Origin: Sphingomonas sp. J315
Lineage (GTDB): Bacteria; Pseudomonadota; Alphaproteobacteria; Sphingomonadales; Sphingomonadaceae
DNA length: 64,000 nucleotides
NCBI RefSeq assembly: GCF_024666595.1
Contig: NZ_CP088296.1
Location: 1,054,001-1,118,000, forward strand
Direction: 5' to 3'
In this document: piece after piece, positions 6,967 to 51,714 of the stretch
Position numbering within the stretch: position 1 is the first letter of the stretch
Layout of the letters: each line of letters starts with the position of its first letter
Notes under the pieces: generated by a model
What the model saw: only the letters and a program-made list of their open reading frames with translations
What the model was told of the DNA's origin: nothing
Database searches by the model: none
Position numbers and translations under genes: made by a program

Positions 6967-8106
6967 ATGAGGAATCCAGCAAAGATTTTGACGATTTTCG
7001 GCACCCGACCGGAGGCGATCAAGCTGTTCCCCGTCGTTCATGCGATGCAGCGCGTATCGGGCCTGGACGTCCGAACCTGTGTCACGGCACAGCACCGTTC
7101 GCTGCTCGATCAGGTTCTGGCGATCGCCGGAATTACCCCCGATATCGACCTCAACGTCATGGAACCGGGGCAGACGCTCGATCGCCTCACCGCCCGGCTG
7201 CTGACCGGGCTCGGGGAGGTCATGGATGCCGAACGCCCCGACCGCGTCGTCGTTCAGGGCGATACCGCGACGGCGATGGCCGGCGCGCTGGCCGCCTATT
7301 TTCGCAAGATACCGGTCAGCCATGTCGAGGCGGGCCTGCGTTCGGGCGACATCTGGCAGCCCTGGCCGGAAGAGGTGAACCGTCGCATCGTCGCGACCAT
7401 GGCGGACCAGCATTTCGCACCGACCCAGACCGCTGCGGATGCGCTGCTGCGTGAAAATGTGGATCCCGCCAGCGTCTTCGTCACCGGAAATACGGTGATC
7501 GATGCGCTGTTGGCGACCCGTGAGCGCATCGCAGCGCACCCTGACCTCGCGACTGCGCTCGACCCCATTCGCGAACGGCTCTCAGGCAAGCACGTCGTCC
7601 TGGTCACAACGCACCGCCGCGAGAATTTCGGAGACGGGATGGAGTCGATCGCGCGGGCAATATCGCGCATCGCCGAACGCCCCGACGTGGTGGTGCTGTT
7701 TCCGATGCATCCCAATCCCAATGTGGTCGCGGTGATGGATCGGGTGATCGGCGGTCGGCCGAACATATTGCGGATCGACCCACTCGACTATCCCAACTTC
7801 ATCCGTGCGCTGGAGCTGTGCCATCTCGTTCTGACCGACTCGGGCGGCGTGCAGGAGGAAGCACCTGCATTCGGAAAGCCGGTGCTGGTCATGCGCGAGA
7901 CGACCGAGCGCCCCGAAGGCGTTTCGGCGTGGACCGCCAAGCTGGTCGGCACCGACACCGACCGGATCGTTTCCGAAATCTCAACCCTGTTGGACGACAA
8001 GGACGCGTATCAGGCAATGGCGCGCGCGCACAATCCGTTCGGCGACGGCCATGCCTCGGCAAGAATTGCGAAGGTCGTCGCGCATGGATTCGGATACTCA
8101 GCTTAA
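6967..8106 (+). CDS. wecB: UDP-N-acetylglucosamine 2-epimerase (non-hydrolysing)
   Basis: The 379-residue protein is a full-length WecB: 'TIFGTRPEAIKLFPVVHAM' at the N-terminus, 'VVQGDTATAMAGALAA', 'VSHVEAGLRSGD', 'PEEVNRR', 'VTTHRRENFG' and 'LTDSGGVQEEAPAFGKPVLVMRETTERPEG'. It equilibrates UDP-GlcNAc and UDP-ManNAc in the cytoplasm. Its stop lies inside the start region of wecC (23-bp overlap), which indicates translational coupling and supply of UDP-ManNAc to the dehydrogenase. This is a different subfamily from the FnlC epimerase at 18262-19395. Confidence 0.93.
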   Translation: MRNPAKILTIFGTRPEAIKLFPVVHAMQRVSGLDVRTCVTAQHRSLLDQVLAIAGITPDIDLNVMEPGQTLDRLTARLLTGLGEVMDAERPDRVVVQGDTATAMAGALAAYFRKIPVSHVEAGLRSGDIWQPWPEEVNRRIVATMADQHFAPTQTAADALLRENVDPASVFVTGNTVIDALLATRERIAAHPDLATALDPIRERLSGKHVVLVTTHRRENFGDGMESIARAISRIAERPDVVVLFPMHPNPNVVAVMDRVIGGRPNILRIDPLDYPNFIRALELCHLVLTDSGGVQEEAPAFGKPVLVMRETTERPEGVSAWTAKLVGTDTDRIVSEISTLLDDKDAYQAMARAHNPFGDGHASARIAKVVAHGFGYSA

Positions 8107-9384
8107 AGTTGCCGTCCTCGGTCTGGGCTATATCGGCCTCCCGACCGCCGCAGTGATCGCGCGGACGGGCGCGATGGTGCTGGGCATCGATGTATCCCAG
8201 CGCGTCGTCGACACCGTCAATTCCGGCCGCGTCCATATCGAGGAGGTCGACCTCGACGGCCTTGTCTCCGGCGTTATCGCACGGGGGACGTTGCGCGCAT
8301 CGATCCAGATCGAACCCGCCGATGTCTTCGTGATCGCGGTTCCGACCCCGTTCGCGGAGAATCACGCGCCCGATATCGGCTACGTCCTGAAAGCGGCCAC
8401 CACGGTCGCGACGGTGGTGAAGCCGGGCGATACGGTTATCCTCGAATCGACATCCCCGGTCGGCACGACCGAGAAGGTCGCCGAATTGCTCAGCCAGCTC
8501 CGCCCCGACCTAAAAATTCCAGGACATTGCAGCGGCACTTCCGACATCGCGATCGCCTATTGCCCCGAGCGTGTTTTGCCGGGCCGGATTCTGGTCGAAC
8601 TGATCGATAATGATCGTGTCATCGGCGGCGTCACGCCCCGTTGCGCCCGCAAGGCACTTCAATTCTATCGCCGCTTCGTACGGGGCGCGTGCGTCACCAC
8701 CAGCGCGCGCGGGCAGAAATGACCAAGCTGACCGAGAATGCATTTCGCGACGTGAACATCGCCTTTGCAAACGAACTCTCGATCGTCGCCGACGGGATGG
8801 GGATCGATGTGTGGGAGGTGATTCGCCTCGCCAATCGCCATCCGCGGGTCAACATCCTCTCGCCCGGTCCCGGAGTCGGCGGCCATTGCATCGCCGTCGA
8901 CCCCTGGTTTCTGGTCGCCGCAGACCCACAGAATACACCGCTCATTCGCACGGCACGCGAGGTAAATGACGGCAAGGTCGCCTTTACGGTCGCGCGCGCC
9001 GAAACGCTGATCGCGCAACTCTCCGACGCCCCCATCGCGTGCCTCGGCCTGGCGTTCAAGGCGAACATCGACGATTTCCGCGAAAGCCCGGCGCTGCATG
9101 TCGCGGAAGCGATCGCAGCGCGTCACGGGTCGCGCGTGCGGATCGTCGAGCCTTACGCCTCGCGACTCCCCGCCGCGCTCGCCGAAAGCGGCGCGAAGCT
9201 TACCGACATCGATACCGCGCTTGAAACCTGTCCGATTCTAATCGTGCTGGTCGATCACGACGTCTTCAAGTCGATCCCCCTCGAAGAGCGGGCCAACAAG
9301 CTCGTGTATGACACGCGCGGGATCTGGCCGGATCAGCCGTCGGCCGACAAGAGCTTTCGATTGCGCTCTGTCCGAGCAGGCTAA
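8084..9384 (+). pseudogene. wecC: UDP-N-acetyl-D-mannosamine dehydrogenase, one frameshift
   Basis: WecC oxidises UDP-ManNAc at C-6 to UDP-ManNAc uronate with two NAD. From ATG 8084 the NAD domain reads 'VAVLGLGYIGLPTAAVIA', 'VAVPTPF'-like 'VIAVPTPFAENHAPD', 'ESTSPVGTTEKVAE' and 'IAYCPERVLPG'. The frame is lost near 8710-8715 in 'gcgcgcgggcag'. Exactly there a second frame takes over with 'AEMTKLTENAFRDVNIAF', 'GPGVGGHCIAVDPWF' (catalytic Cys) and 'GLAFKANIDDFRESPA'. One missing base accounts for the break and the joined length (about 433 residues) is normal. The start overlaps wecB, and the end overlaps the convergent cysQ by 4 bp. Confidence 0.9.
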
Positions 9385-10160: not shown

Positions 10161-10163
10161 GGA

Positions 10164-13171: not shown

Positions 13172-13247
13172 AGGCGGCCATCTATGGACCATGCCCGCGC
13201 TCCGCGATCTAGTATTTGTTTACGCTCCCGTATGCGCGACATCTTGA

Positions 13248-18261: not shown

Positions 18262-19395
18262 TCAGTCGTATTCGCGCCAGACCACCCGCTTCACATAGTC
18301 GGTGTAGCTGTGGATGATCCGAACCACCTTTTCGGAGACGTTCGGCATTGAATAGTCGGCAACTAGCCGCAACGCGCGATCCTCGCCCCGCGCCTGGCGG
18401 TCGATGAGTGCCAACGCCTGCTCCACGCGCTCGACGTTGAGCCCGGTCATGATGACGGACGCTTCCTCCATGCCCTCGGGCCGCTCATGTGCCTCGCGAA
18501 TGTTGAGCGCAGGAAAGTTGAGGATCGACGATTCCTCGGTGATCGTACCACTGTCCGACAGCACGGCGCGCGCCGATTTCTGCAGCCGGACATAATCGTG
18601 GAAGCCGAGTGGCTTGAGGAGCCGGACATTTTCATGAAAGGCGACGCCCGCTGCGGCGATCCGGTTGCTGGTGCGCGGATGCGTGGAGACGATCACGGGG
18701 GCGTCGCGGCTCTCGGCGATGCGGTTCAGGACCTCGACCAGCTTGAAGAAGGTGCGGTCGGACTCGATGTTCTCCTCGCGATGCGCGCTCACGACATAAT
18801 AGCCCCGCTCATCGAGGCCCAGCCGGTCGAGCACGTCCGATGCGTCGATCCGATCCATATAATGTTGCAGCACCTCGAACATCGGGCTGCCCGTCTTGAT
18901 CACCATGTCCGGCGAAAGCCCCTCGCGCAGGAGATAGTCGCGCGCGATGGTGCTGTAGGTCAGGTTGATGTCCGCGGTGTGGTCCACGATGCGCCGATTG
19001 GTCTCTTCGGGAACCCGCGCGTCGAAACAGCGGTTGCCCGCCTCCATGTGGAAGATCGGGATCCGGCGGCGCTTCGCTGGAATGACCGACAGACAGCTGT
19101 TCGTGTCGCCCAGCACCAGCAGCGCATCGGGGCGCACTACCTGGAGAAGCGAATCCATCGCGATCAGGATGTTGCCGATCGTCGCGGAGGGCGCGCCCGC
19201 CGCGCTGTTCAGGAAATGGTCCGGCTTGCGGATCCCCAGGTCGTCGAAGAAGACTTGGCTCAGCTCATAGTCGTAATTCTGGCCGGTATGGACCAGCACA
19301 TGCTCGCAATCGGAATCGAGCCGCGCAAGAACACGCGACAGCCGGATGATCTCCGGCCGCGTGCCGACGACGGTCATCACCTTCAGCTTCTTCAT
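18262..19395 (-). CDS. fnlC: UDP-L-FucNAc-forming 2-epimerase (FnlC/WbjD)
   Basis: This 377-residue protein belongs to the WecB-like 2-epimerase fold but to the Cap5G/WbjD/FnlC branch: 'VVGTRPEIIRLSRVLARLD', 'HTGQNYDYELSQVFFDDLGI', 'LVLGDTNSCLSVIPAKRRRIPIFHMEAGNRCFD', 'PEETNRRIVDH' and 'LSDSGTITEESSILNFPALNIREAHERPEGM'. It inverts C-2 of UDP-2-acetamido-2,6-dideoxy-L-talose to give UDP-N-acetyl-L-fucosamine, the last step of that pathway. It follows fnlB by 4 bp and precedes wbuB by 5 bp. Confidence 0.92.
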   Translation of the reverse strand: MKKLKVMTVVGTRPEIIRLSRVLARLDSDCEHVLVHTGQNYDYELSQVFFDDLGIRKPDHFLNSAAGAPSATIGNILIAMDSLLQVVRPDALLVLGDTNSCLSVIPAKRRRIPIFHMEAGNRCFDARVPEETNRRIVDHTADINLTYSTIARDYLLREGLSPDMVIKTGSPMFEVLQHYMDRIDASDVLDRLGLDERGYYVVSAHREENIESDRTFFKLVEVLNRIAESRDAPVIVSTHPRTSNRIAAAGVAFHENVRLLKPLGFHDYVRLQKSARAVLSDSGTITEESSILNFPALNIREAHERPEGMEEASVIMTGLNVERVEQALALIDRQARGEDRALRLVADYSMPNVSEKVVRIIHSYTDYVKRVVWREYD

Positions 19396-19399
19396 GCCG

Positions 19400-20512
19400 T
19401 CAGACCTTCAATGCGATGGTGTCGGGGCGGGCCCGGTCGAAAATCTCGTTCGCCCACAGCATGACGATCAGTTCGTCATCGCCGATATTGGTGATGTTGT
19501 GAGTCCAGCCCGGAATCGTCTCGACGATCCGCGCCTCGCCGCCCTTCACGACCACCTCGTGCCGCTCGCCGGACAGGATGTGGCGAAAGCCGAAATGCGC
19601 GGTGCCCGCGATGACCAAGAACTTCTCGGCCTTGGTGTGGTGATAGTGGTCGCCGCGGGTAATGCCGGGTCCGGCCGTGAAATAGGAGAACTGGCCGGCA
19701 TCGGGGGTCTTGAGCATTTCGACGAACACCCCGCGCGGATCGCCATGCACCGGCACAGTATAATCGAACGCTTCGGTCGGCAGATAGCTGAGATAAGTCG
19801 AATAAAGCGCGCGAATCAGGCCCGTACCCACGCGCGGCGACACCAGCGATCCGCGGCTCTCGGGAAAGCCGCAGATCGCATCCGCCACTGCACCCACCGT
19901 GGTCGCATAGGCCGGATCGACTTTGCGATAGCCGGTCGCGACGTCCGACCCGTTCAGCAGGGCAATGAAGTGATCAACGACGTCATCGATATAGACAAGG
20001 TTGAGCGGCGCCGACGGATCGTTGACGGCGATTGGCAGGCCGCGTGCCACATTGTTGCAAAAGGTTGCGACCGCTGAATTATAGTTGGGGCGCGCCCATT
20101 TGCCGAACACGTTGGTCAGGCGAAACACATACGAGGTCGCGCCGGTCGCCTGGGCGTGCGCGAACACGACATCCTCGGCCTCACGCTTGCTACGGCCATA
20201 AGGATTGTCGGCCGCCGCTTGGGTCGAGGAACTGAGCACGATCGGCGCGGTATTCCCGGCCTGTGCCAGCGCGTCGCACAGGTTGCGGGTGAGGCCCGGA
20301 TTACCCAGCGCAAACTCGCCCTCGTCGCTCGGGCGGTTCACCCCGGCGAGGTGGAACACAAAGTCCGCTTCCTGCGCTGCGGCGCGCAGCGCGTCGGCAC
20401 CGTCCTCTCGCCCGATCTGGATTACCCGAACCGCGTCGCCAAGCTCGCCCAGCCGAACGCACAGATTGCGGCCGACAAAACCACGCGCTCCGGTGACAAT
20501 GACCGTTTTCAT
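19400..20512 (-). CDS. fnlB: UDP-L-FucNAc pathway reductase/epimerase (FnlB/CapF)
   Basis: A bifunctional CapF/WbjC-type enzyme of 370 residues. The N-terminal SDR domain has 'VTGARGFVGRNLCVRLGELG' (NADPH site), 'FHLAGVNRP' and 'YGRSKREAED' (Tyr/Lys pair). The C-terminal cupin from about residue 245 has 'FSYFTAGPGITRGDHYHHTKAEKFLVIAGTAHFGF', the HYHHTK metal site of CapF. The cupin epimerises C-3 and the SDR domain reduces C-4 of the keto-sugar made by FnlA. The start overlaps the fnlA stop by 4 bp (ATGA). Confidence 0.93.
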   Translation of the reverse strand: MKTVIVTGARGFVGRNLCVRLGELGDAVRVIQIGREDGADALRAAAQEADFVFHLAGVNRPSDEGEFALGNPGLTRNLCDALAQAGNTAPIVLSSSTQAAADNPYGRSKREAEDVVFAHAQATGATSYVFRLTNVFGKWARPNYNSAVATFCNNVARGLPIAVNDPSAPLNLVYIDDVVDHFIALLNGSDVATGYRKVDPAYATTVGAVADAICGFPESRGSLVSPRVGTGLIRALYSTYLSYLPTEAFDYTVPVHGDPRGVFVEMLKTPDAGQFSYFTAGPGITRGDHYHHTKAEKFLVIAGTAHFGFRHILSGERHEVVVKGGEARIVETIPGWTHNITNIGDDELIVMLWANEIFDRARPDTIALKV

Positions 20513-21552
20513 ACCTGCGCTTCCATCGACACCCCCTCGCCCCGCTGCACGCGGACGATGAAGTCGAGCTTGAGCAGCAGGGCCTTCATGCCCTCGACAT
20601 CCAGCCGGTGGGTGTTGTGCGAATTATATTCCTCGCCGTGGCTCAGCCGCGCCTCGCCCTGATCGACGAACTTGTCGTAGTTGAGGTCGCGGGCATCGGG
20701 GGGAACGCGGAAATAATCCCCCAGGTCCTCGGCGACCGCACGCTCTTCCTTTGAGAGCAGCGATTCGTAGAGCTTCTCGCCATGCCGGGTGCCGATGACG
20801 CCAACCGGGTGGCTGGGCTTGTCGATCAGCTGCTTGAGCGCTTCGACCAGCGTCTCGACGGTCGCGGCGGGCGCCTTCTGGACGAAAATGTCGCCATTGT
20901 TACCGTGCTGAAACGCATAGAGGACAAGCTCTACCGCATCGTCCAGCGTCATCATGAACCGGGTCATTTGCGGATCGGTAATGGTGATGGGCCGATCGCT
21001 GACCATCTGGTCGATGAACAGCGGGATCACCGACCCGCGCGAGGCCATGACGTTGCCGTAGCGCGTTCCGCAAATCACAGTTCCCGTACCCTCCAGGTTG
21101 CGGGACGCGGCGACCATCACCTTCTCCATCATCGCCTTGCTGATACCCATGGCGTTGATGGGATAGACCGCCTTGTCGGTGGACAGGCAGATCACGCGTC
21201 GCACCCCAGCGGCAATCGCCGCCCCCAGCACGTTTTCGGTGCCCAGCACATTGGTGCGCACCGCCTGCATCGGATGGAACTCGCATGAGGGGACCTGCTT
21301 CAGCGCTGCGGCGTGGAAGCAATAATCGACTCCGCGCATCGCCGGCACCAGGCTGCGCTCGTCGCGGACATCGCCCAGATAGAATTTGAGCTTGTCGCTG
21401 CCATAGCGCTTGCGCATGTCGTCCTGCTTCTTCTCGTCGCGCGAGAAGACGCGAATTTCCTTGAGGTCGGAATCAAGGAAACGGCGAAGCACCGCATTCC
21501 CGAAGGAGCCGGTACCCCCGGTAATCAGCAAGGTCTTGTTGTCGAACATCAT
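20509..21552 (-). CDS. fnlA: UDP-GlcNAc 4,6-dehydratase (inverting, FnlA/CapE)
   Basis: A 347-residue SDR dehydratase beginning 'MMFDNKTLLITGGTGSFGNAVLRRFL', with 'RDEKKQDDMRKRYGSDKLKFYLGDVRD', 'FHAAALKQVPSCEFHPMQAVRTNVLGTENV', 'LSTDKAVYPINAMGISKAMMEKV' and 'RYGNVMASRGSVIPLF'. The Met-Gly-Ile-Ser-Lys in place of the usual Tyr-x-x-x-Lys is typical of the CapE/WbjB group. It converts UDP-GlcNAc to a 4-keto-6-deoxy sugar with C-5 inversion, the first step to UDP-L-FucNAc. It lies 30 bp after hisF in the same operon. Confidence 0.93.
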   Translation of the reverse strand: MMFDNKTLLITGGTGSFGNAVLRRFLDSDLKEIRVFSRDEKKQDDMRKRYGSDKLKFYLGDVRDERSLVPAMRGVDYCFHAAALKQVPSCEFHPMQAVRTNVLGTENVLGAAIAAGVRRVICLSTDKAVYPINAMGISKAMMEKVMVAASRNLEGTGTVICGTRYGNVMASRGSVIPLFIDQMVSDRPITITDPQMTRFMMTLDDAVELVLYAFQHGNNGDIFVQKAPAATVETLVEALKQLIDKPSHPVGVIGTRHGEKLYESLLSKEERAVAEDLGDYFRVPPDARDLNYDKFVDQGEARLSHGEEYNSHNTHRLDVEGMKALLLKLDFIVRVQRGEGVSMEAQV

Positions 21553-21582
21553 CCCCCCTCGGGCCGCGACCCGGAAAGCCTC

Positions 21583-22363
21583 TTACCCGCCCAGCGCCGA
21601 CCGGACGAGCCGTTCCTTCGCATCAGGCGACGGATAGTTGATCAAAACGGCGCGGTACTGCCCCTTGAACACGAACAGGCTGCCTGCGGCCGCCCCGACG
21701 ACGCCGACCTTCTCGACCAGGCGCCCGATATCGTCGAGTGAGCCGGCCCCGCCTAGGATCGAGATCGGAATGCGCACCGCGGCGCGCAGCTTCTCGGCCA
21801 GCGCGAGGTCATAGCCCTTCATCGTTCCGTCAAGGTCGATCACGTTTACGACGATCTCGCCAGCGCCCTGGCGCTCCATTTCGCGCGCGAACTCGATCGC
21901 CTCCAGCTTTCGATTCATCTTTGCGTTGTGCGTGTAGACGTCCCAGCCGGGGAGCAGGCGGCGCTTCTTCACGTCGATCACCACCACGACGCTCTGGCGC
22001 CCGACCGCCTCCGCGATCTCGGCGACCAGCGCCGGATTGTCGACCGCCGCAGCACTGATCGCGACTTTCTCGACGCCCAACCCGATGATCCGCTTCGCCT
22101 GCTCGGCGGTCTTCACGCCACCGCCATAGCAAAGCGGCATGCGACACTCCGCCGCCCAATGCGCGATGCGGGGATAGTCGGGCTCCGCGCCGGTCACCGT
22201 CGCGTCGATATCGACGATGATGAGCTCGTCGCTCTCTTTCTCGTTGAAGATTTTTACCGCGTTGACCGGATCGCCGACATACTTCGGGTCCTTGAACCCG
22301 ACGGTCTTTACCAGACCCCCCTTCGTGAACCAGCAGGCACGGGATGATACGCGGGCGCAGCAT
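21583..22363 (-). pseudogene. hisF: HisF-like cyclase subunit of the sugar amidotransferase set, frameshifted
   Basis: The start 'MLRPRIIPCLLVHEGG' at 22363 follows the hisH stop at once. After a six-G run near 22316-22321 the frame shifts: 'LVKTVGFKDPKYVGDPVNAVKIFNE', 'ELIIVDIDATVTG', 'CRMPLCYGGGVKTAEQAKRIIGLGVEKVAI', 'VVIDVKKR' and 'PISILGGAGSLDDIGRLV' continue in the other frame. Removing one G restores about 260 residues with the (beta/alpha)8 fold. In this context (beside the PP-loop amidotransferase) it is a HisF2-type paralogue used for polysaccharide amidation rather than histidine synthesis. That is inferred from gene order; no other his genes are here. Confidence 0.85.
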
Positions 22364-22365
22364 GG

Positions 22366-22968
22366 TCAGAGCGTCGCAAAATTGCGGAGAAGCGCGGCAC
22401 CGAAATGGTGGCTCTTCTCGGGGTGACATTGCACGCCCCACACATTGTCCCGCCGCACAACGCAGCCGAAATCGCCGCCATAGTTAGCGGTCGCCGCGAC
22501 ATCGGCCGGATCGGCACATTCGAAATAATAGCTGTGCAGGAAATAGAAGCGCGGTGCCTCTTCGAACCCGGCGAACAGCGGCTCGCCTTCGCGCGGCACG
22601 ACGTCGTTCCAGCCCATATGGGGCAGCGGCAGCGCGTTGGTCTGGAAACGGCGCACGCGCCCGGGGATAAAGCCGAGCCCCTCACCCTCGCCTTCCTCGC
22701 TCGAATTGGCCAGCATCTGCATGCCGACGCAGATGCCGACCACCGGCACCTTCTCCTCAAGTGCCTTGCGCTCGAGCACCGGCCGCATGCCCGATGCGTC
22801 AAGCAGCTCCATCGCATGGTCGAACGCGCCCACGCCGGGAAGAATAATCCGCTCCGCCTTCTCGAGCAAGGCGGCGCCAGAGACCGCGGTCGCGGGGATG
22901 TTCATCCGCTTGTACATATTGAGGAAGGCCCCGATATTGCCGAGGCCGTAGTCGACGATCGTGATCAA
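22366..22968 (-). CDS. hisH: HisH-like glutaminase subunit of the sugar amidotransferase set
   Basis: A 200-residue class I glutamine amidotransferase. The nucleophile is Cys80 in '[11 protein letters not shown]' and the His182/Glu184 pair lies in '[11 protein letters not shown]', so the triad is complete. It hydrolyses glutamine to pass ammonia to its partner. The start overlaps the amidotransferase stop by 4 bp and hisF begins within the next few bases, so the three proteins are made together. This matches the WbpG-HisH2-HisF2 arrangement known from Pseudomonas O-antigen clusters that make acetamidino sugars. Confidence 0.9.
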
Positions 22969-24119
22969 CGGATGATCGCCCTCTGGATCCCTGCGGCGCG
23001 CAGCACCTTTGCGCCCAGGTCGATCATCGTGATGTTGTTCTTGTAGTCGCGATAGGACTTGTTCGGGCCGTTGTGCAGCGTGCGCAGCTCGTCGACGGTG
23101 ATGCCAAGCTTGGTCGCGATATACTCGAAGTCCTCGGCGATTCGTTCCTCGTCATAAGCGGGCTTGGCGATCCTCTCGAGCGCCTCGGCACGGCTCAGCT
23201 GCCCGGTCAGGATCAGGCTGGAGAAATGCGCGCGGCGCTTGTCGAACCCGAACTTGGTCGGCAGCCAATAGCCCTCGTAGAAGCGGGTGAAGCGCGATTC
23301 ATAGTGCTTGTGCGCGTAGCGCTGCCAGCCGAAGCGGTCCACCAGCTCCTGCATCGCCGCTTCCTTATGATAGGGAACGTGGTTGAGCGGCTTGACGACC
23401 CGGACACCCTTCACAAAGCGATAGTAGAGCTTGAACTTGAAAATCCCGGCGAGCGGGAACTTCTTGAGCGGACGGGTCCCGAACTTGCTCTGGATATCGC
23501 GGATCTGGCGCAGGTCCGACGCGTGATAGTGCCACTCCAGCGGCTCGCGCACGCATTCGGTCGAGTAGTTCGCGCCGGTCAGGATGTACTTCACATCGTT
23601 CTTCGCGGCGAAATTGTAGAGGCCCGCGAAGAAAGCGTGGTCCTGCGGCGTGTCGAGATGCGCCACCTGCGACTTGAAGAACGCGAGCTGCAGATCCCGC
23701 ATCTCCGGCCAGTCGACCACCTCGGTGAAGAGGTCGAGGTCGAGGCCGTCGACCAGCTTCTCGATATTGTTGACCGCTTCCTGGGAGTTCCACCCGGCAT
23801 CAACGTGATAGAGCAGCGGACGGAGCCCGAACTTCTCCTTGGCGATGTAGGTGACATAGCTGCTGTCGACGCCGCCACTCAGGCCGATCAGGCAATCATG
23901 GTCCTTACCCTTGCCGTCCGCCTTGATCTTCTCGATCTGAGCCATGATCTCGCGTTCGCCGCGCGCATCGGTGTGCCAGTGCGGCAGAATATTCTCATGG
24001 TAATTATTGCAGTAATCGCACCAGCCACGTTCGTCGAACGTGATGTTCGAATCGCTCGTGTCCATGATGCAGTTCGCGCAAATCTGGTATTCGCGCGTCG
24101 AGGCAGGAGCGTGAAGCAT
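22965..24119 (-). CDS. N-acetyl sugar amidotransferase (WbuX/WbpG family)
   Basis: A 384-residue PP-loop enzyme. The N-terminus has a Cys4 cluster (Cys14, 17, 34, 37: 'CANC' and 'CDYC'). The ATP-binding PP-loop '[15 protein letters not shown]' spans about 79-93, followed by '[21 protein letters not shown]' and '[13 protein letters not shown]'. The family activates an N-acyl sugar with ATP and uses ammonia from HisH/HisF to form an amidine (for example acetamidino groups). The substrate here may be a 3-acylamino sugar made by the dehydrogenase, aminotransferase and formyltransferase upstream in the locus. Family call is firm; substrate is inference. Confidence 0.9.
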
Positions 24120-27158: not shown

Positions 27159-28547
27159 CTACCGCCTTTGAAGTGCCAGATGCTGGCCCAGAAAAAGAAG
27201 GATGGTCAGCAATCCGCCACCAAAGGACACCATAGACGTTGAGAAATGAACGTTCGTGAGCGAAACGGCCAGCGGGACAGTAAGCAAGAGCACTAGCTTA
27301 TAATCCCAACCAATCGAGAACTGGTCAAAAAAACGCAGCCATATCGCGATAACGAACGCAATCACAAAGACGCCGAACGGCCCGGCGGCCGCGAGCCCTT
27401 CACCGGAAAAGGCATTGGCATTCATATTCACGTAGGCGAACGTTCCAGCGTAGTGACGCCCAACAATTTCGCCCAGCCTGGGCCAATCCGGATCGCCAAC
27501 ATACGCAGAGGGGGTGGGAACCACCATACCCAAGCCTGTGATGTTGGACCACCACGTATATCCGAACGTCCCGAAGAAGTCGCTGTATTGCGCTATGGTC
27601 AATCCCGGGATTGCGAGGCCACGCATAACTAGCTGAGATCCTATAACGGATCCTAGCCCCGTCCCCTGAAAGATAACGGCCAAAGATACAAGCAATGTCA
27701 ATCCAATTAGTATCAAGGCAGATGAGTTAAGGCGACCGCGCATCGTGGAAAATAAAAAATAGAAAGCCACAATAATAAACGGAGTGGCCAACGCAAATTT
27801 TTGCGCATCAACTAGATAAGCAATGACAGCTCCCGCGGAGCCAAGAAAGCATAAAAACACATTTCTACGAACAATGCCAATTGATAGCAATGCTGGAGAA
27901 ATCATTGCTGAGTAATACGTCTGTATATAACCGACAAAACTGATTGTTCCACGCTGAATTGAGAAGCGTTGATCATAAATCTCATCTAGCGACGCAAAAC
28001 GCATAATGCTGCCATAGGCGATGAAGAGGGTTACTGTTGCTATTATCCAAATTGCAACGAGTAGCATTGGAATCCAATCTGGTATTTGAACAGAAACGGT
28101 TCCAGTTTGCTTGCGCCCGAAGACGTCAGCCGAAATGGAAAGCGCCGAAATTGCGATCCCGATACATAGCAAAGTAACCCCATAGCGTTGGAGTGATTCG
28201 GACCCGAGCATCATGATAATTGCGACTGCGGGCAAATAAATTACGGAGTACATGAAAAATAGGATGAGGGACGATGGCCTCACGAACCGCAGGGCGATTG
28301 TAAACGATGGCAACAGTGCGAGGAATAGTGTCGCGGTCCCAGTGGTCAATGTGGGCGCGGCGTAGGTGAACCCAAGGTAGGCCCACGTGTCGCTCAGATA
28401 CTCCCGGTGCGCCATATGGAGGCTGAATACGAACGCGCAAACCGCCACTACCAGTGCCAGCCGAGTCTGCAGCAAATTAAGAAGGTCGAAATGATCCGCT
28501 CGGCCTGTCAGGGTCGCAAACCGGTGGCGAGAGCTGTATATGTTCAT
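27159..28547 (-). CDS. Oligosaccharide repeat-unit polymerase (Wzy-like)
   Basis: A 462-residue very hydrophobic protein with roughly eleven or twelve membrane helices and a large periplasmic loop near residues 300-370 ('YSDFFGTFGYTWWSNITG', 'NMNANAFSGEGLAAAGPFGVF'). The 'N-NA--GEGLA--G--G' stretch is the usual Wzy-type (O-antigen polymerase, EpsG/Wzy-like) late-loop feature. It would join repeat units at the periplasmic face. Sequence conservation in this family is low, so the call rests on topology and context between wzx and glycosyltransferase genes. GC content falls sharply here. Confidence 0.8.
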   Translation of the reverse strand: MNIYSSRHRFATLTGRADHFDLLNLLQTRLALVVAVCAFVFSLHMAHREYLSDTWAYLGFTYAAPTLTTGTATLFLALLPSFTIALRFVRPSSLILFFMYSVIYLPAVAIIMMLGSESLQRYGVTLLCIGIAISALSISADVFGRKQTGTVSVQIPDWIPMLLVAIWIIATVTLFIAYGSIMRFASLDEIYDQRFSIQRGTISFVGYIQTYYSAMISPALLSIGIVRRNVFLCFLGSAGAVIAYLVDAQKFALATPFIIVAFYFLFSTMRGRLNSSALILIGLTLLVSLAVIFQGTGLGSVIGSQLVMRGLAIPGLTIAQYSDFFGTFGYTWWSNITGLGMVVPTPSAYVGDPDWPRLGEIVGRHYAGTFAYVNMNANAFSGEGLAAAGPFGVFVIAFVIAIWLRFFDQFSIGWDYKLVLLLTVPLAVSLTNVHFSTSMVSFGGGLLTILLFLGQHLALQRR

Positions 28548-28641: not shown

Positions 28642-30165
28642 TTAGTCGGACGAGACGCGGTTCTGCATCAAGCCGTCGCCTTGAGGAGAGAAGGGTCGCA
28701 TCCGCATCGAGGTCGTTATGACATTGCCCCGCGGGGGTCTAGGGTCTGTCACTTGGCTCACTCCGGTGTCGATGATAACCGACGCCTTCCGCGTGTCCGC
28801 TCTGCCAACCTCTACCCGGTTATTGATCCCTCCCGTCAGTTGCCCTTCCAGATCATGGGCCGTCACGTCCGCGAACGCTATGACGTTGTCGTGCGGCGCA
28901 CCTTCGAGACCATAATAGGACAGGCCGAATGACTTGTCGTCTATGAGCCACGCCGCGTGGCCGTCGACCACCTGCCCAACGTCAACGCGATTGGCCTGTG
29001 AGCGGCCGAAAATCCAAACGCTACCACCCAGGCCGCGATCAGGACGTCCGCACCCAGAGATGCGGTTCAAACGCACGTTTGATTCCATCGCGCCAAAAGC
29101 GATGAAACCGCCATGACTACCTCCGGACAGGCTTCCCTGCCCTTCGACTGTGAAGCCGCGCGCTAGCGTGGCTGCGAGGCAGTGAAAACTGACAACGTCG
29201 CCACGCCCGCCGCCCCCGGCAATTTCGAAACGCCCTGAGAGTCCACCGCCGACGCTGCCAACGCGAAACGGCGCCCCGGCAAAGGAACGCGGCAGCGGCT
29301 TATTGAGATGCACCTCACGTGCAGTTACGCGCTCAACCGTGAAAATCGCCGAGCGAAGTGCGGAGATGGACACGCCGGCTCGGTGCGCTTTAGCCGAACT
29401 TCCAAGCGCGCCGCGCCCGTAAACTTCATCGGCCGTAAAAATGCCGCCGGACACGGTCCCATAGACGATCTCGTCCTCGATCAGAAGATGGATGGCGCCG
29501 CCCTCGATGCTTGCCGCAGTGTTTCCAACGATCGGAAATCTGCCCATAGCGGCGTCAATGGTCGTGCCCAGAGCGAGGAGAATCCCCGGATATGCCTCGA
29601 TTCCGAACACCGCGACTCGCGCTCCCGGTTCGAAATACACCGAATCGCCCGGATAATTTAGGCGAAGCGCCCGTTCCCCCGGTTACCGTCACAAGAGCCC
29701 GGGCCGACGAACGTTTCAACCATACCGTAGGCGACGGCATTGTCGCTCGCGATTCGGGTCGGCGGTCTAGAGGTCGCAATGCGCGTTCCTTCCATTTCCC
29801 ATCGTAGTCCGCCGGGCATTACCAGATTACCCGCACCTAGATCGCGAACAAAGGTAACGAGGCCAGTGCGGAGCGTGATCGGCCGCCGAGGCAAGCGGAA
29901 AAAAATCCTCCTCGAGCGCGATCGTGCCTCGCAGCATTGAGCAATCAAGGATCGAGCCATCGGGGCAGTCGGAAATCGCAGTGCCGAGACGGGATGCGAT
30001 CCGGGGAACTTTGAACCCATCGGCAATCCGGCCGCGCTCAGCGGGAGTGAGCCATTCCAACAGCGAGCGCCGTTCTCGCGCCCGGGCGCAGATCGCACCG
30101 CATGCCCCAACGCTCACCGCGGCCGCTCCGCTGGCAGCACTTAGCAAGAACCCGCGCCTTCTCAT
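28642..30165 (-). pseudogene. Exported right-handed beta-helix protein, frameshifted
   Basis: The start 'MRRRGFLLSAASGAAAVSVGACG' at 30165 is a twin-arginine-like signal with a possible lipobox (GACG). Three frames follow: one to near 29890, one to about 29680 ('PITLRTGLVTFVRDLGAGNLVMPGGLRWEM', 'TRIASDNAVAYGMVETFVGPG'), and one from there ('LRLNYPGDSVYFEPGARVAVFG'). The last runs through Gly-rich short strands such as 'GGGLSGRFEIAGGGGRGDVV', 'GFIAFGAMESNVRLNRISGCG' and 'GGINNRVEVGRADT', typical of parallel beta-helix polysaccharide-active proteins. Two one-base changes give about 507 residues. Located between wzx and wzy, it may trim or bind the polymer; no catalytic residues are assigned. 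Confidence 0.68.
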
Positions 30166-30174
30166 CGACCCGTC

Positions 30175-31587
30175 CTATCCTGCGGCGAATATCGCTTCAG
30201 TGAGCGCGGACGCCAACACAGCCGACACAATTCCAACCGCCGTCCATGCCGCCAGCAGCGGCACCGCGCCGCTAAACTGGCCGATCAGCGACCGCAACTG
30301 GATATCCCCGCTATGCACGACGGCACTGAGGTAGACGAGATAGAAGAGCGCGCTCGAGACCGCGAACGCTTCGGACATGTAGACCGGGGCGGTCGCGCCC
30401 ACCAGCGCAACGGTGCCGACGCGCAGGGTTAACCCGAACACCTGCAGGCCGAGCGCCATCCGCTGATGGCCCGTCACCTGCATCACATAGCCGACCGGCG
30501 TGGTCAGCAGCTGCAATGCGAACCAGGGGGCCATCCACGCGATCAGCACACCCGCGCGCTCCCATTCCCAGCCGAACACAAAGCCAAAGGCAAAGGGCGC
30601 GACGAAGCCCAGCGCGATCAGCGGCCCGACACCGGTCTTTGCCAGCGCGACGAGGATGTTCTGGAGCAGCGGCGCGAGGGTCCCGTCGCGATGCCGGGTC
30701 GGCGCCTCCGAGAGGAACACCTGCCCGAGGGCGTTGCCGAGCAGGGACATCGGCGCTTGGATCACGAACAGCGCGAGCATCAGCTGCCCTGCCTCGCCAT
30801 GGCCCGCCATCGCCGCGACGAGGATCACCGGCAACTGGACGGCGACCGCCACGACCACTCCGTCCAGCGCGGAGTAGCGCGGATAGTTGACGTTGGCCCC
30901 GAACGCGGCGCGAAGCCGCGCGCGCGAGACATGGCGCCACAGCGCCCGGTCGTGCCGCAGGAAGCGCGCGCCGAGCAGCAGCGCACCCGCGCCGCTGTTC
31001 AGCACCGTTCCCACGACCAGCCCGATCGGCCCGGTGCCTGCAGCTCCGAGACTGATCTGTGCAGCGACGCTTGCCCCCGACTGGCTGATCCGGCTGCGTG
31101 CGATCGGTCCGAAAGCGCGGCGCCGTACGAACCAGAACTGCAACAGGCTGTAGAAGCCGGCCACCATGACGGTTGGAGGCAGGATCCACGCATAGGCCGC
31201 GAAGGCGCGCGATCCGAGTGTTTCCCACGCGCGGTCGGGCACCGCTAGCATCGCCAGCGCGAGGAGCGCGGACAGCAGGACGGCGCTGATTCCGCCGAGC
31301 GCCAGCAAATTGACCGCTTCGTCGTCCCGCTCGGCGATCGACAGCGCCAGGTCGAAGCGGAGGCAGATCGAGATGTAGAGGATCGCCAGCATGCTGGCGA
31401 ACACCGCCAGAATTCCCATGTCCTCGGGCGTGTAGAGACGGGTCAACACTGGCATCGCCGCAGCCGTGACCAGGTTGGCGATCACCGTACCGCCGACCAG
31501 CACCCCAGTCGCACGCACGAAGCCGTTCTGAAGGGTCTGCGCGACGCGCCGTCTTGCCCGGTCGATCACGGTGTGGTGCTCACGCAC
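30175..31587 (-). CDS. Repeat-unit flippase (Wzx-like, MOP superfamily)
   Basis: About 470 residues with twelve or more membrane helices. The frame stays open up to 32073, but upstream sequence is an arginine/serine-rich shadow of the aminotransferase gene. The likely start is the GTG at 31587 ('VREHHTVIDRARRRVAQ'), 22 bp after that gene's stop. Helices begin with 'GVLVGGTVIANLVTAAAMPVLTRLYTPEDMGILAVFASM', the classical Wzx N-terminus ('TR-YTPEDMG'). It would flip undecaprenyl-linked repeats to the periplasm. The beta-helix gene starts 9 bp downstream. Confidence 0.87.
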   Translation of the reverse strand: MREHHTVIDRARRRVAQTLQNGFVRATGVLVGGTVIANLVTAAAMPVLTRLYTPEDMGILAVFASMLAILYISICLRFDLALSIAERDDEAVNLLALGGISAVLLSALLALAMLAVPDRAWETLGSRAFAAYAWILPPTVMVAGFYSLLQFWFVRRRAFGPIARSRISQSGASVAAQISLGAAGTGPIGLVVGTVLNSGAGALLLGARFLRHDRALWRHVSRARLRAAFGANVNYPRYSALDGVVVAVAVQLPVILVAAMAGHGEAGQLMLALFVIQAPMSLLGNALGQVFLSEAPTRHRDGTLAPLLQNILVALAKTGVGPLIALGFVAPFAFGFVFGWEWERAGVLIAWMAPWFALQLLTTPVGYVMQVTGHQRMALGLQVFGLTLRVGTVALVGATAPVYMSEAFAVSSALFYLVYLSAVVHSGDIQLRSLIGQFSGAVPLLAAWTAVGIVSAVLASALTEAIFAAG

Positions 31588-31609
31588 GGCACGGCCTTCC
31601 CGCAGGCCG

Positions 31610-32710
31610 TCAGCCCGCGAAGAATGCCCGGACCGATGCGATGACGCGCTCGACCTCGGCCTCCTCCAGATGCTCGCCCATCGGCAGGCTGAGCAACGTG
31701 GGCGCGATCGCGCTCGCGCGCACCGGCGCGTCAGCCGAACGCAGATAAGCATAGGCCTCCAGATCGTTGAGCGCGATCGGATAGTGGATGCCGCTTTCGA
31801 TCCCCTCCGTCTTGAGGTGCGCGGCAAGCGCGTCGCGGCGATCGGTCCGAACGACGAACAGGTGGTAGGCGTGGCGAACGTTCGCGGACACGGTCGGAAG
31901 GGTAAGGCCCTCGATCCCCGCCAAGCCAGCGTGATAGGCGGCGGCGACCGCGTTGCGGCGATCCACCCACCCGTCGAGGTGTGGCAACTTCGCGCGCAGA
32001 ATCGCCGCCTGCATACCGTCAAGGCGGCTGTTTCGGCCCTCGAACTTGTGGTCGTATTTGTCGATACGGCCATGATTGGCGATCATCCGACACTTCATCG
32101 CCAGATCGGCGTCGCTGGTCACGATCGCCCCGCCATCGCCATAGGCCCCGAGGTTCTTGCCAGGATAGAAGCTGAACGTGCCGACGTCGCCGATCGCACC
32201 GACGCGACGGCCGCGATGCTCGGCGCCATGAGCCTGCGCCGAATCCTCGATGATCTTGAGGCCGTGCGCGTCGGCGAGCGAGTTGATCCCGTCCATGTCG
32301 CAAGGCTGCCCATAGAGATGGACGCACATGATCGCCTTGGTCTTCGGCGTGATCCGCTTCGCTGCGTCGGCCACATCGATCAGCATCGTTTCCGGATCGG
32401 GCTCGCAGAACACGACGCGGTGGCCGGACCGGGTGACCGCCTCCGAGCTGGCGATAAAACTGTTAGCGGGAACCAGAATTTCGGACCCGGGCGGCAGGTC
32501 CAATGCCTCAAGGGCAATCTCGATCGCGTCGGTGCCGTTCCCCACCGCGATGCAGTGCGCGGCTTGCTGGAACTCCGCAAACGGATCCTCGAAGGGCTTC
32601 AGGTCGGGTCCGCCGATGAAGCTGGTGCGTTCGATCGTCCGTGCGATCGCGGCGTCGATGTCCCCCTTGATCGATTCATATTGAGCCGTGAGATCGAGAA
32701 ACTTAACCAT
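31610..32710 (-). CDS. DegT/DnrJ/EryC1/StrS sugar aminotransferase
   Basis: A 366-residue PLP enzyme from ATG 32710. It shows 'FIGGPDLKPFEDPFAEF', 'VGNGTDAIEIALEAL', 'IIEDSAQAHGAEHRGRRVGAIGDVGTFSFYPGKNLGAYGDGGAI' with Lys185 as the PLP lysine, and 'NSRLDGMQAAILRAKLPHLDGW'. The 'SFYPGKNLGAYGDGG' form is common in enzymes aminating C-3 keto nucleotide sugars (WbpE, FdtB, QdtB). Immediately upstream are a formyltransferase and a WbpB-like dehydrogenase, which supports amination at C-3 of a uronic acid or deoxy sugar. Family firm; position inferred. Confidence 0.88.
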   Translation of the reverse strand: MVKFLDLTAQYESIKGDIDAAIARTIERTSFIGGPDLKPFEDPFAEFQQAAHCIAVGNGTDAIEIALEALDLPPGSEILVPANSFIASSEAVTRSGHRVVFCEPDPETMLIDVADAAKRITPKTKAIMCVHLYGQPCDMDGINSLADAHGLKIIEDSAQAHGAEHRGRRVGAIGDVGTFSFYPGKNLGAYGDGGAIVTSDADLAMKCRMIANHGRIDKYDHKFEGRNSRLDGMQAAILRAKLPHLDGWVDRRNAVAAAYHAGLAGIEGLTLPTVSANVRHAYHLFVVRTDRRDALAAHLKTEGIESGIHYPIALNDLEAYAYLRSADAPVRASAIAPTLLSLPMGEHLEEAEVERVIASVRAFFAG

Positions 32711-32740
32711 GTGTCTTCCTATCAATTCCGTCGGCGCAGA

Positions 32741-33449
32741 TCAGCGCACAAACCGTTCCTTATACGCCTCGAACGCACTTCGAAGCGTGGATTGCTTCTC
32801 GGCGGGCATGCGCATGCGTGCCGGCCGCACCAAGTTTTCGTCGATGACGGGTCGCTCGGGCGCTGCCATGAGATGATCGAAGGCGAGCATCATCAGGATT
32901 TCGCTCTCGTAATGGCGACGCGCGAAGGACTCGAGATCGTCGTCCTTGAACAATGGGGTCGGCGCGACGGCGATCAGATCGCCGGCATCCGCCTGTTCGT
33001 CGATCAGGTGCAGCGTGTTTCCGATCGGCATCTGATCGAAGATCGCCCATTTAAACAGAATCGAGCCCGCGCACCAGCGGGATAATGCCCGGATGGCAGT
33101 TCAGCACCCGGCCACGGGTCGCGCGGACGAACGCTTCAGGCAGAATTCCCGCGCCAGCGATGAGGAACAGGTCGGCCCCGTCTGCAGGAATATCCTGCGC
33201 CCCACTCACCGCGACGAACTCCGCCCCAAGATACTCCGCCATCGCGGGGGTGGCGGAGCCGCCCAGCATGTCCGGCCGATGCGCGAACAGAATCTCACGC
33301 GACGGCCGGCTGACGAAGGGCAGTGCGTAAAAGACAAGGTTCCGATAGCCCGCCTGGTCCAGGCCGATCGCGAGTTGCTCGGTCTTCAGGTGACGCGCAT
33401 CATAGGTGATGATGGCGATGCGCCGGTCGGCGCGATTGCGGTCCTGCAC
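32741..33449 (-). pseudogene. Sugar N-formyltransferase-like protein, one frameshift
   Basis: The GTG at 33449 opens 'VQDRNRADRRIAIITYDARH'. The formyltransferase core follows with 'LFLIAGAGILPEAFV' and 'GRVLNCHPGIIPLVRGLDS', which holds the Asn117 and His119 of the Asn-His-Asp triad. The frame breaks at about 33058 and resumes as 'FKWAIFDQMPIGNTLHLIDEQADAGDLIA', giving the triad Asp. The protein ends at 32741, about 236 residues in all. Enzymes of this fold transfer formyl from N10-formyltetrahydrofolate to an amino sugar. The neighbouring aminotransferase (31 bp downstream) would supply that amine. A one-base change repairs the gene. Confidence 0.83.
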
Positions 33450-33471
33450 CCTCTGTCTCCGCCTGCTTGCT

Positions 33472-34531
33472 TCAGACGCGGCCCAGCCGGGCCATCTTCG
33501 GCTTGAAGCGCAGGTTCACCTCACGGCCGGTCTCGATGGATTCATAGATCGCCGAGATCAGCTCGAGGCTGCGGCGGCCCTTCATCCCGTCGACCAGTTG
33601 CGGCCCACCATTCTCGATCACATCGACGACATGCTCGTAATAAGCTTGGTGCCCGAAGCCATAGACGCTCGGCGGGTTGACCGAGTAATTCTGCACGACC
33701 TGCTCGTCGCCCGGCTGAGTCTCGACGAACGACCAGGTCTCCAGCTTGTTGACGGCGAAACCGCCGATCACCACCGATCCGCCCTCGCCTAGGATCGACA
33801 ATGATCCCCTCGAGGTCCTTGGGGCGGGTGCCGCCGGTCGCCTCGATGACGCCGAGCGCGCCGCTTGCAAAGGTGAGGATCACCGCCGCGGTATCCTCGG
33901 CCTCCATCTCGACCAGGCGCGTAGCACTCATCGCGGACACCTTGACGACATCGCCCATCATCCATTCGAGCAGATCGACATGGTGGCTAGCCTGGTTGGT
34001 CAAGATGCCGCCATCCAGCGCCCAGGTGCCGCGCCATGAATCCTGGTCGTAATAGGATTGCGGACGGCACCAACGAACGCGGACCGTGCCCATCACCAGC
34101 TTACCGAAACGGCCCGCCTCAAGCGCTTCGCGCAGCTTCACCACGGGCACGTTGAAACGGTTCTGCTTGACCACGAACAGCTTCACGCCGGCCTTGTCGC
34201 ACGCCTCGATCATCGCGTCGGCATCGGACAGAGTGAGCGCCATAGGCTTTTCGACGACGATGTGCGCGCCATAGGGCGCCAGCTCGATCACGTGGCGCGC
34301 ATGGTTGCCGCTTTCGGTCAGCACAACGACGACATCCGGCCGGACCGTCTTCATCATCTCGTGCATGTCGGTGAACGCGGGAATGTCGAATTGTGCGCCG
34401 ATCTTCTCAGCCTTCGCCGCAACCAAATCGCAGACGCCGGCGAGCTCGGCGCCCTTGATAACCTTTTCGCCGAGCAACTCGCTATGGCGCTTAGCGATCC
34501 GGCCGCACCCGACCAGGCAGAACTTGAGCAT
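33472..34531 (-). pseudogene. Gfo/Idh/MocA oxidoreductase (WbpB/WlbA-like), one frameshift
   Basis: From ATG 34531: 'MLKFCLVGCGRIAKRHSELL' (NAD site), 'VVVVLTESGNHARHVIEL', 'HIVVEKPMALTLSDADAMIEA' (EKP motif), 'VVKQNRFNVPVVKLREAL' and 'DGGILTNQASHHVDLLEWMMGDV' with the catalytic His region. The frame breaks near 33805 ('LEGIIVD'), and the end 'LSILGEGGSVVIGGFAVNKLETWSF' to 'RFKPKMARLGRV' is in another frame. The repaired protein has about 353 residues. WbpB/WlbA enzymes oxidise UDP-GlcNAc uronate at C-3 before transamination, which fits the downstream aminotransferase. The specific substrate is inferred. Confidence 0.85.
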
Positions 34532-34612
34532 TTTCCCCCCACTACACTTCCCCACGGACACGCGGGTCTCTCACCCGCAAGTCGCTGTAGCTAAACATTC
34601 GCTTGACCAGCG

Positions 34613-50177: not shown

Positions 50178-51484
50178 TCAGCCCTTGCCGACGCCAACGA
50201 GCGTAAAGCCCGCAGCCTCCGCTTCCTTGGCTGGATAGATGTTGCGCAGGTCGACCAACAGCGGCTGGCTTAGCTCGCTCTTCATCCGCTTGAGGTCGAG
50301 CGCCCGGAACTCGTCCCATTCGGTCACGATGACCAGCGCATCGGCACCCTGCGCCGCCGCATAGGGGCCGTCGGTGAACTCGACATCCTTGAGCAGCGGC
50401 CGGGCCTGTTCGACGCCCTCAGGGTCATAGGCGCGGATCGTGGCCCCCGCGTCCTGCAACGTCTGGATCACCGCGATCGACGGCGCATCGCGCATATCGT
50501 CGGTATTCGGCTTGAAGGTCAGGCCAAGGATCGCGACCGTCTTGCCGCGCACGTCGCCCCCATTGCCTTGATCACCTTGCGGCCCATCGCCCGCTTGCGA
50601 TGATCGTTGACCTGGACCGTCGCCTCGACGATCCGCAGCGGCGTCTCGTTATCGTCGGCGGTCTTGAGCAGCGCCAGCGTGTCCTTGGGGAAGCACGACC
50701 CGCCATAGCCCGGACCGGCATTCAGGAACTTGCGCCCGATGCGATTGTCCATGCCGATGCCGCGCGACACCTCCTGCACGTCCGCGCCGACCTGTTCGCA
50801 CAGGTCCGCGATTTCGTTGATGAAGGTGATCTTGACCGCCAGAAAGGCGTTGGCGGCGTATTTGATCAACTCGGCGGTGCGGCGGCCGGTGAACATGACA
50901 GGTGCCGACTGGTTGAGCGAAAGCGGACGATAAATGCCGCGCATCACATCGCTGGCGCTCTCGTCTTCGCTGCCGACCACGACGCGATCGGGACGCTTGA
51001 AGTCCTCGATCGCGGCGCCTTCGCGCAGAAATTCCGGGTTGGATACGACGCGGATCCCCTTGTCGGGGGCGATGCGCGCGACGATCCGCTCGATCTCGTC
51101 GCCGGTACCGACCGGCACGGTCGACTTTGTGACGATCACGGTCGGGCCATCGGCGGCGGCGGCGATCTCCTCGGCCGCTGCATAGACATAGGACAGGTCG
51201 GCATGGCCATCGCCGCGCCGGCTCGGCGTGCCGACCGCAATGAACACCGCGTCCGCGCCCTTGACGCCCTCCGCGATATCGGTGGTGAAGGACAGCCGCC
51301 CGCCCTTGACGTTCGACGCGACCAGTTCGGCCAGCCCCGGCTCATAGATCGGCATCACATTCTGATGCAGCAGCCCGATCTTGCGCGCGTCCTTGTCGAC
51401 GCAGACGACATCATGACCGAAGTCGGAAAAGCAGGCGCCCGACACCAAGCCAACATACCCCGTGCCGATCATCGCGATGCGCAT
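50178..51484 (-). pseudogene. ugd: UDP-glucose 6-dehydrogenase, one frameshift
   Basis: The ATG at 51484 gives 'MRIAMIGTGYVGLVSGACFSDFGHDVVCVDKD', 'PIYEPGLAELVA', 'VFIAVGTPSRRGDGHADLSYV', 'TKSTVPVGTGDEI', 'NPEFLREGAAIEDFKRPDRVVVG', 'AANAFLAVKITFINEIADLCE' and 'AGPGYGGSCFPKDTLALL' (catalytic Cys). The frame is lost near 50560 after 'KVIKAMG'. 'RGKTVAILGLTFKPNTDDMRDAPSIAVI' and the end 'FTLVGVGKG' follow in another frame. One base restores about 435 residues. It makes UDP-glucuronate for the GAE-type epimerase and the glycan. Confidence 0.92.
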
Positions 51485-51685
51485 CGAACAAACCTCCGAA
51501 ACGATTTTCAATCCGCGCACGAACAGCGCGACAGGGCACAATTGCCGCCATCGCGCTATGGCCGTTTTGCGGGTCCGTCTACCGGAATTTCGCCAGATCA
51601 GGCGAGGTTGACGTCGAGTCTGCGGCCGCGACGCGCCGACCAGACACGGCTCCAGCGATAAACTTGAAACCCGTCGCTTACCCTC

Positions 51686-51714
51686 TTGACCCGGCAAAGC
51701 ACTGCGCCTAACGG
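51686..51714 (+). promoter_or_regulatory. Probable tRNA-Glu promoter
   Basis: A TTGACC box at 51686-51691 and a TAACGG box at 51709-51714 with a 17-bp spacer lie 16 bp before the mature tRNA. The -35 is good and the -10 weak, which is acceptable for a GC-rich alphaproteobacterium. Confidence 0.4.

Follow-up and report, generated by a model that had tools for sequence, protein, structure and literature searches.

The WbpA-B-E-D-I / Wlb pathway leads, in Pseudomonas and Bordetella, to uridine diphosphate (UDP)-2,3-diacetamido uronic acids. Here we describe a locus of Sphingomonas sp. J315 that resembles this pathway in carrying a WlbA-like 3-dehydrogenase and a C3-type DegT aminotransferase, whose genes enclose one for acyl transfer and are followed by one for a flippase, but that differs from it in having a formyltransferase instead of the hexapeptide acetyltransferase. 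We regard this gene triad as a variant of the known pathway, and the exact sugar it makes is a prediction. The window, that is the whole stretch of 64,000 nucleotides that was analysed (contig NZ_CP088296.1, positions 1,054,001 to 1,118,000), is part of a 3.93-Mb single-contig genome, here called G000, whose assembly is 96% complete. The original prediction was that the three families are encoded consecutively, and this is borne out: all three occupy the minus strand between 31610 and 34561, the Gfo/Idh dehydrogenase first, the formyltransferase next and the DegT aminotransferase last, with intergenic gaps of 22 and 15 base pairs, and a Wzx-type flippase gene comes directly after DegT. The features, with the evidence for each, are the following.

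33472..34561, minus strand: Gfo/Idh (WlbA-like) nucleoside diphosphate (NDP)-sugar 3-dehydrogenase, in two frames (33542-34561 and 33472-33870); PF01408/PF22725/PF02894, best PDB match 3q2k, tree
32741..33449, minus strand: putative sugar N-formyltransferase of an uncharacterised family, in two frames (33051-33449 and 32741-33031); PF00551 pieces below cut-off, relatives in 12 loci, alignment, predicted fold of a relative
31610..32725, minus strand: DegT/DnrJ/EryC1 aminotransferase, C3-type, intact; PF01041 at 371 bits, PDB matches, tree
30175..31610, minus strand: Wzx-type flippase; PF13440 (the listed open reading frame (ORF), 30175-32073, over-extends into DegT)

The replacement of the acyltransferase is best seen by comparison within the genus. 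The dehydrogenase is carried by seven of the 295 genus genomes searched, the window genome included (E 1e-40 or better), a count that may miss rarer copies as only seven first-look candidates were scored in most listed genomes. In all six of the others a hexapeptide-type acyltransferase sits between the dehydrogenase and DegT (Pfam Hexapep was scanned for, and found, in two of the six, G055 and G892), and the window is the only one of the seven with a formyltransferase in this slot, where no WbpD-type hexapeptide acetyltransferase is present. G055 and G892 come closest, with dehydrogenases 63-64% identical to that of the window (43-46% in the other four genomes) and DegT proteins 48-51% identical; their clusters have the same gene order, theirs with an acyltransferase and the window's with a formyltransferase. 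The acyltransferase of G892 is 84% identical to that of G055, and those of the other four genomes are 27-32% identical to it. The position of the flippase also seems to be kept, with a 26% match after DegT in G055 and an ORF there in G892 that is flippase-like by eye. The claim that a formyltransferase takes the place of the WbpD-type acetyltransferase is thereby supported; as comparative genomics, the swap of formyl for acetyl appears solid, and the "3-formamido" part of the prediction is well supported. If true, close relatives would offer a naturally occurring exchange of acetyl for formyl, which could be used for studying surface-sugar change. In G055, wecB, wecC, ugd, WlbA, acyltransferase, DegT, flippase, HisH, HisF and WbuX stand in one row (locus L022, 3680-14543), which we consider a candidate acetamidino-uronate locus.

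Both enzymes flanking the formyltransferase point to chemistry at C3. The best PDB matches of the dehydrogenase are 3q2k (213 bits) and 3q2i (204 bits), the next match reaching 92 bits. These two structures carry the PDB names oxidoreductase and dehydrogenase, and we take them to be WlbA of Bordetella and Chromobacterium, and WlbA in turn to be a uronate enzyme. The conserved WlbA motifs EKP, KQNR, WRGTW and NQASH are kept in the window protein. With 3q2k as the nearest solved structure, the proposal that a WlbA-like enzyme oxidises C3 is supported. So is the proposed amination at C3, the DegT protein having DesV (367 bits), QdtB (301 bits) and WbpE (267 bits) among its best five PDB matches; all three act on C3, DesV and QdtB being 6-deoxy-hexose enzymes and the substrate of WbpE being a 3-keto UDP-N-acetylglucosaminuronic acid (UDP-GlcNAcA). 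In the genome there is one full-length DegT (371 bits, PF01041). Three other PF01041 matches pass the low Pfam cut-off, scoring 22-34 bits and covering roughly a fifth to a third of the profile, and a genome search with the window DegT as query returned its own gene only. A separate 4-amino-6-deoxy sugar as acceptor of the formyl group, which would have spoken against a 3-formamido product, was considered and rejected: it is unlikely because the genome has this single full-length DegT, and we see nothing else in it that would provide a 4-amino sugar.

The two pieces of the window formyltransferase align with separate parts of PF00551, at E 1.1e-4 and 2.8e-4, both short of the curated cut-off, and an intact relative passes it with 40.7 bits against a cut-off of 26.1. 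The residues expected in the catalytic triad of this fold, Asn-x-His and Asp, are present in the alignment: the first piece contributes N117 and H119, in the context N-C-H-P-G, and the second D15, in the context D-A-G. A relative from locus L028 is predicted with a confidence (predicted local distance difference test, pLDDT) of 91 to adopt the formyltransferase fold, and sugar N-formyltransferases top its Foldseek list. The described sugar N-formyltransferases VioF, WbkC, QdtF, FdtF and WlaRD are like the window protein in fold, in the N-x-H and D residues and in their likely amino-sugar acceptors, but the nearest solved match to the window family, 6v2t, reaches only 56 bits, so that the family is without a close solved member. 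The named matches act on 4- or 3-amino-6-deoxy sugars. An NDP-amino sugar would be the likely acceptor of the window enzyme.

The surroundings of the family are informative. Among 12 loci recruited with the formyltransferase (one of which, L030, is the locus of genome G216, whose formyltransferase belonged to the query that recruited the 12), DegT is matched in eight, Gfo in eight, both in six and a UDP-sugar 6-dehydrogenase in five, compared with 0/20 for each of these in control stretches, which were drawn from two genomes and none of which is a polysaccharide locus. In six of the 12, DegT adjoins the formyltransferase or lies one gene off, with Gfo/Idh in the locus. A tree of the DegT proteins, which has no row for L014 and L016-L019 (none was dropped for length), places five of the eight DegTs from formyltransferase loci in the clade of the solved WbpE (95/100). 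The family was found in five phyla, in a tree of which the window is represented by its first piece only. In the class it was detected in the window genome and G216 only among 385 genomes (E 1e-8), and in the phylum in the window genome only among 398 (E 1e-10), both sets being draws from larger groups; a piece of the formyltransferase gave no match among plasmids and phages at E 1e-5. The loci L030 and L038 hold Gfo-formyltransferase-DegT triads in which the Gfo is of a non-WlbA type, the two being 42% identical to each other; perhaps this is another route to the same amine.

We suggest that the WlbA-like enzyme would oxidise C3 of a UDP-linked uronic acid to a ketone, that the DegT enzyme would transaminate this ketone to a 3-amine, and that the formyltransferase would move a formyl group from N10-formyl-tetrahydrofolate to the amine, giving a UDP-3-formamido uronic acid that may feed a Wzx-exported polysaccharide. 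We infer substrate, product and step order from what can be read directly in the genomes, namely the families, their order, the swap against the relatives and the recurring neighbourhood. That the triad makes a UDP-3-formamido uronic acid, on whatever backbone, seems to us somewhat better than an even bet. The swap predicts an unusual surface sugar; if true, the proposal would extend the 3-acylamino uronic acid pathways by a formyl branch and offer a testable substrate for a formyltransferase family in five phyla.

The backbone is less certain than the 3-formamido part. The genes that could supply it lie elsewhere in the window.

6967..8106, plus strand: WecB, UDP-N-acetylglucosamine (UDP-GlcNAc) 2-epimerase; TIGR00236 at 460 bits (cut-off 210)
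8051..9384, plus strand: WecC, UDP-N-acetylmannosamine (UDP-ManNAc) 6-dehydrogenase, in two frames; NF008286 at 285 and 277 bits for the two pieces
50178..51697, minus strand: Ugd/TuaD-like UDP-glucose 6-dehydrogenase, in two frames; NF047673 is the best match for both pieces, below cut-off

A PF03721 search gave two dehydrogenases over the cut-off per genome: Ugd and WecC in the window genome and in G055, and in G892 a pair scoring at the same levels (matches under the cut-off, of about 20-24 bits, were set aside). The window genome thus differs from the Wbp/Wlb pathway in that no dedicated UDP-GlcNAc 6-dehydrogenase (WbpA) was found over the Pfam cut-off and, in a PF02350 search, no WbpI-type epimerase. 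The 2-epimerases recovered by that search were two in the window genome (WecB and FnlC), one in G055 and one in G892, and a WbpI-type enzyme was found in none of the three. G855, another of the six genus genomes with the dehydrogenase, also has two PF02350 matches, which correspond to the WecB and FnlC positions, so not every set of this kind comes with a WbpI-type epimerase. As a dedicated 6-dehydrogenase is lacking in the window genome, G055 and G892, the C6 carboxylate, if there is one, would come from WecC or Ugd. We make UDP-N-acetylmannosaminuronic acid (UDP-ManNAcA) the first choice because the equivalog model for UDP-ManNAc dehydrogenase recognises the intact WecC orthologue of G055 above its cut-off (566 bits against 459). 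WecB and WecC would then supply UDP-ManNAcA, C2 being epimerised first rather than last, and the product would be UDP-2-acetamido-3-formamido-2,3-dideoxy-mannuronic acid (UDP-ManNAc3NFoA). We favour this backbone, with UDP-glucuronic acid (UDP-GlcA) as its rival, but hold it only tentatively. Slightly more tentative still is the full proposal, in which UDP-ManNAcA from WecB and WecC passes through a divergent WlbA and DegT to a new formyltransferase family, which would in several phyla also make 3-formamido uronic acids from WbpE-made amines. The original prediction of a UDP-2-acetamido-3-formamido uronic acid made by way of wecB-wecC therefore stands in part: C3 oxidation, amination and formylation as one unit are upheld, whereas the backbone is a tentative choice, as the presence of WecBC, near-core genes in the genus, counts for little. 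An operon shared by wecBC and the triad was rejected, the two lying about 22 kb apart on opposite strands.

Several observations weigh against the proposed pathway. The WecC piece is matched in 66 of 81 genus genomes, and we have discounted the mere presence of wecBC as evidence of its use by the triad; in G892, moreover, WecC and WlbA lie on different contigs. In a WlbA tree, which has long branches (a warning of the tool) and rows cut to the first 265 residues, the window protein groups with those of G055 and G892 (83/90), outside the clade of the solved WlbA (97/100), into which the proteins of G855, G878, G1031 and G044 fall (97/100). The DegT tree repeats this pattern, with the window grouping with G055 and G892 (89/94) outside the WbpE clade (95/100) and the same four genomes falling with WbpE (95/100). 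DegT also scores higher with DesV and QdtB than with WbpE, and in the tree it lies outside the QdtB/DesV clade as well (96/95), which sets it apart from the aminotransferases of the QdtB/FdtB route to deoxythymidine diphosphate (dTDP)-3-amino-6-deoxy sugars. With both window enzymes outside the clades of the solved ones, another difference from the Wbp/Wlb pathway, the transfer of a substrate by homology is weak. As to the formyltransferase, purine, tRNA and sugar formyltransferases are tied in VIA-align for the L028 model, and the acceptor can therefore not be read from the fold; DegT and Gfo are not both matched in six of the 12 loci at the limit used, and three of the eight DegTs in the tree (L032, L034 and L035) fall outside the WbpE clade. 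Finally, the dehydrogenase and the formyltransferase each span two frames, only DegT being intact.

Three alternatives seem to us about equally unlikely. The first is that the substrate is UDP-GlcA from Ugd and the product UDP-3-formamido-3-deoxy-glucuronic acid, with no amino group at C2. This would fit with Ugd being one of only two UDP-sugar 6-dehydrogenases over the cut-off, with ugd being the gene before WlbA in G055, and with DegT and WlbA both lying outside the clades of the solved UDP-GlcNAcA enzymes. Ugd is, however, 94% identical between the window genome and G055, as a housekeeping gene would be, its window copy is some 16 kb away from the triad, and we know of no enzyme set of this kind that acts on UDP-GlcA. 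The second is the classical route, in which WecC would also oxidise UDP-GlcNAc and the triad would make UDP-GlcNAc3NFoA, as in Pseudomonas and Bordetella except that formyl replaces acetyl. In five of the 12 loci the formyltransferase comes with a DegT of the WbpE clade, as this route would have it, but the window DegT is not of that clade, and the UDP-ManNAc dehydrogenase model met by the G055 WecC speaks for a different substrate.

The third is that the triad has decayed and that no product is made in this strain, as the two broken genes might suggest. We compared G055 ORFs of at least 200 amino acids with 264 kb of the window genome (60% identity, 85% coverage). Five of 16 needed two frames when overlapping ORFs were included, and four of nine when overlaps were removed, all four inside the window: the triad dehydrogenase, WecC (87-88% identical), Ugd (94%) and a gene at about 1403-2283. 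The reverse control gave 0/9, or 0/3 with overlaps removed, a weak control in that two of the three are WecC pieces. Because the recount gave 4/9 here and 0/3 in reverse, we have raised our estimate for decay, by a small step only. On the other side, strongly conserved genes such as Ugd and WecC are among those broken, hisF in the window (21583-22441) is also frame-broken, a formyltransferase-family gene outside the window, at 285 kb, likewise matches in two pieces, and in each broken gene the two pieces resemble relatives to much the same degree, the identity of the dehydrogenase pieces to the intact gene of G055 being 63% and 68%. As conserved Ugd and WecC are broken too, sequence error is the likelier and simpler reading of these small counts.

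A shade less probable is that the triad acts on UDP-GlcNAc without C6 oxidation, as GnnA/GnnB do, giving UDP-GlcNAc3NFo. The genome has no dedicated UDP-GlcNAc 6-dehydrogenase that we could find, and a UDP-GlcNAc 3-dehydrogenase model does turn up in the NCBIfam results, though scoring well short of its cut-off (108 of 450 bits); but the nearest solved relative is WlbA, and in all four genus genomes of the sister WlbA clade (G855, G878, G1031 and G044) a UDP-sugar 6-dehydrogenase, 36-45% identical to the one of L028, adjoins WlbA.

Next to the triad, as a neighbouring pathway and not a part of it, the window holds a predicted gene set for N-acetimidoyl-L-fucosamine (L-FucNAm), at 18262-24119, consisting of FnlABC and an LfnA/WbuX-type amidotransferase with HisH and HisF; FnlA and the HisF piece score below curated cut-offs.

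22965..24119, minus strand: WbuX/WbpG-type amidotransferase; TIGR03573 at 301 bits (cut-off 203)
22366..22968, minus strand: HisH-type glutaminase; TIGR01855 at 221 bits (cut-off 105)
21583..22441, minus strand: HisF2/WbuZ-type subunit, broken frame; NF038364 at 254 bits (cut-off 310) for the piece 21583-22197
20509..21552, minus strand: FnlA-like 4,6-dehydratase/5-epimerase; TIGR04130 at 625 bits (cut-off 730)
19400..20512, minus strand: FnlB/WbcJ reductase; NF047837 at 561 bits (cut-off 500)
18262..19395, minus strand: FnlC-like 2-epimerase; PF02350, with 83% identity to its counterpart in the corresponding block of G855

WbuX-HisH-HisF continues straight into FnlA-FnlB-FnlC, and G855 has WbuX, HisH, HisF, FnlA, FnlB and FnlC in the same order at 82, 72, 71, 84, 68 and 83% identity, with about 1.8 kb between HisH and HisF. 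Because the module runs with fnlABC in both, the amidotransferase, which we take to be of the LfnA type that makes L-FucNAm, most likely acts on N-acetyl-L-fucosamine (L-FucNAc), and the formamide would stay unchanged. The idea that the WbpG-type amidotransferase converts the acyl amide into an amidine is accordingly left unsupported: a formamidine is improbable, the least favoured of the readings considered, since although WbuX, HisH and HisF lie only 7.5 to 10 kb from DegT, and G055 pairs a different WbuX (41% identical) with WlbA-acyltransferase-DegT in one locus where no separate fnl gene was matched (its genome having a single PF02350 epimerase), the window module joins fnlABC, recurs with it in G855 at 68-84% identity, and does so in a genome whose own WlbA set carries an acyltransferase.

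Some further genes of the window deserve mention. Two ORFs on the minus strand without a Pfam match, 27159-28547 and 28642-29640, lie between a glycosyltransferase and the flippase; a region next to WbuX in G855 matches the first of them (41% identity, 279 residues), which is perhaps a polymerase. At 16501-17031 (minus strand) a DUF6016 protein, which resembles WbuC-type cupins, adjoins a glycosyltransferase and fnlC, and at 13898-14524 (minus strand) an integrase-core (rve) transposase-like ORF stands next to a sugar-phosphate transferase gene. Genes of the inositol monophosphatase family, a GTPase/adenosine phosphosulfate (APS) kinase fusion and the phosphoadenosine phosphosulfate (PAPS)-reductase family, at 9381-13192 (minus strand), adjoin the polysaccharide genes; we liken them to CysQ, CysN/C and CysD, and they may be connected with a sulfated polymer. 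An Acyltransferase_3 plus SGNH protein is encoded at 40558-42666 (plus strand), a combination common in polysaccharide O-acetylation.

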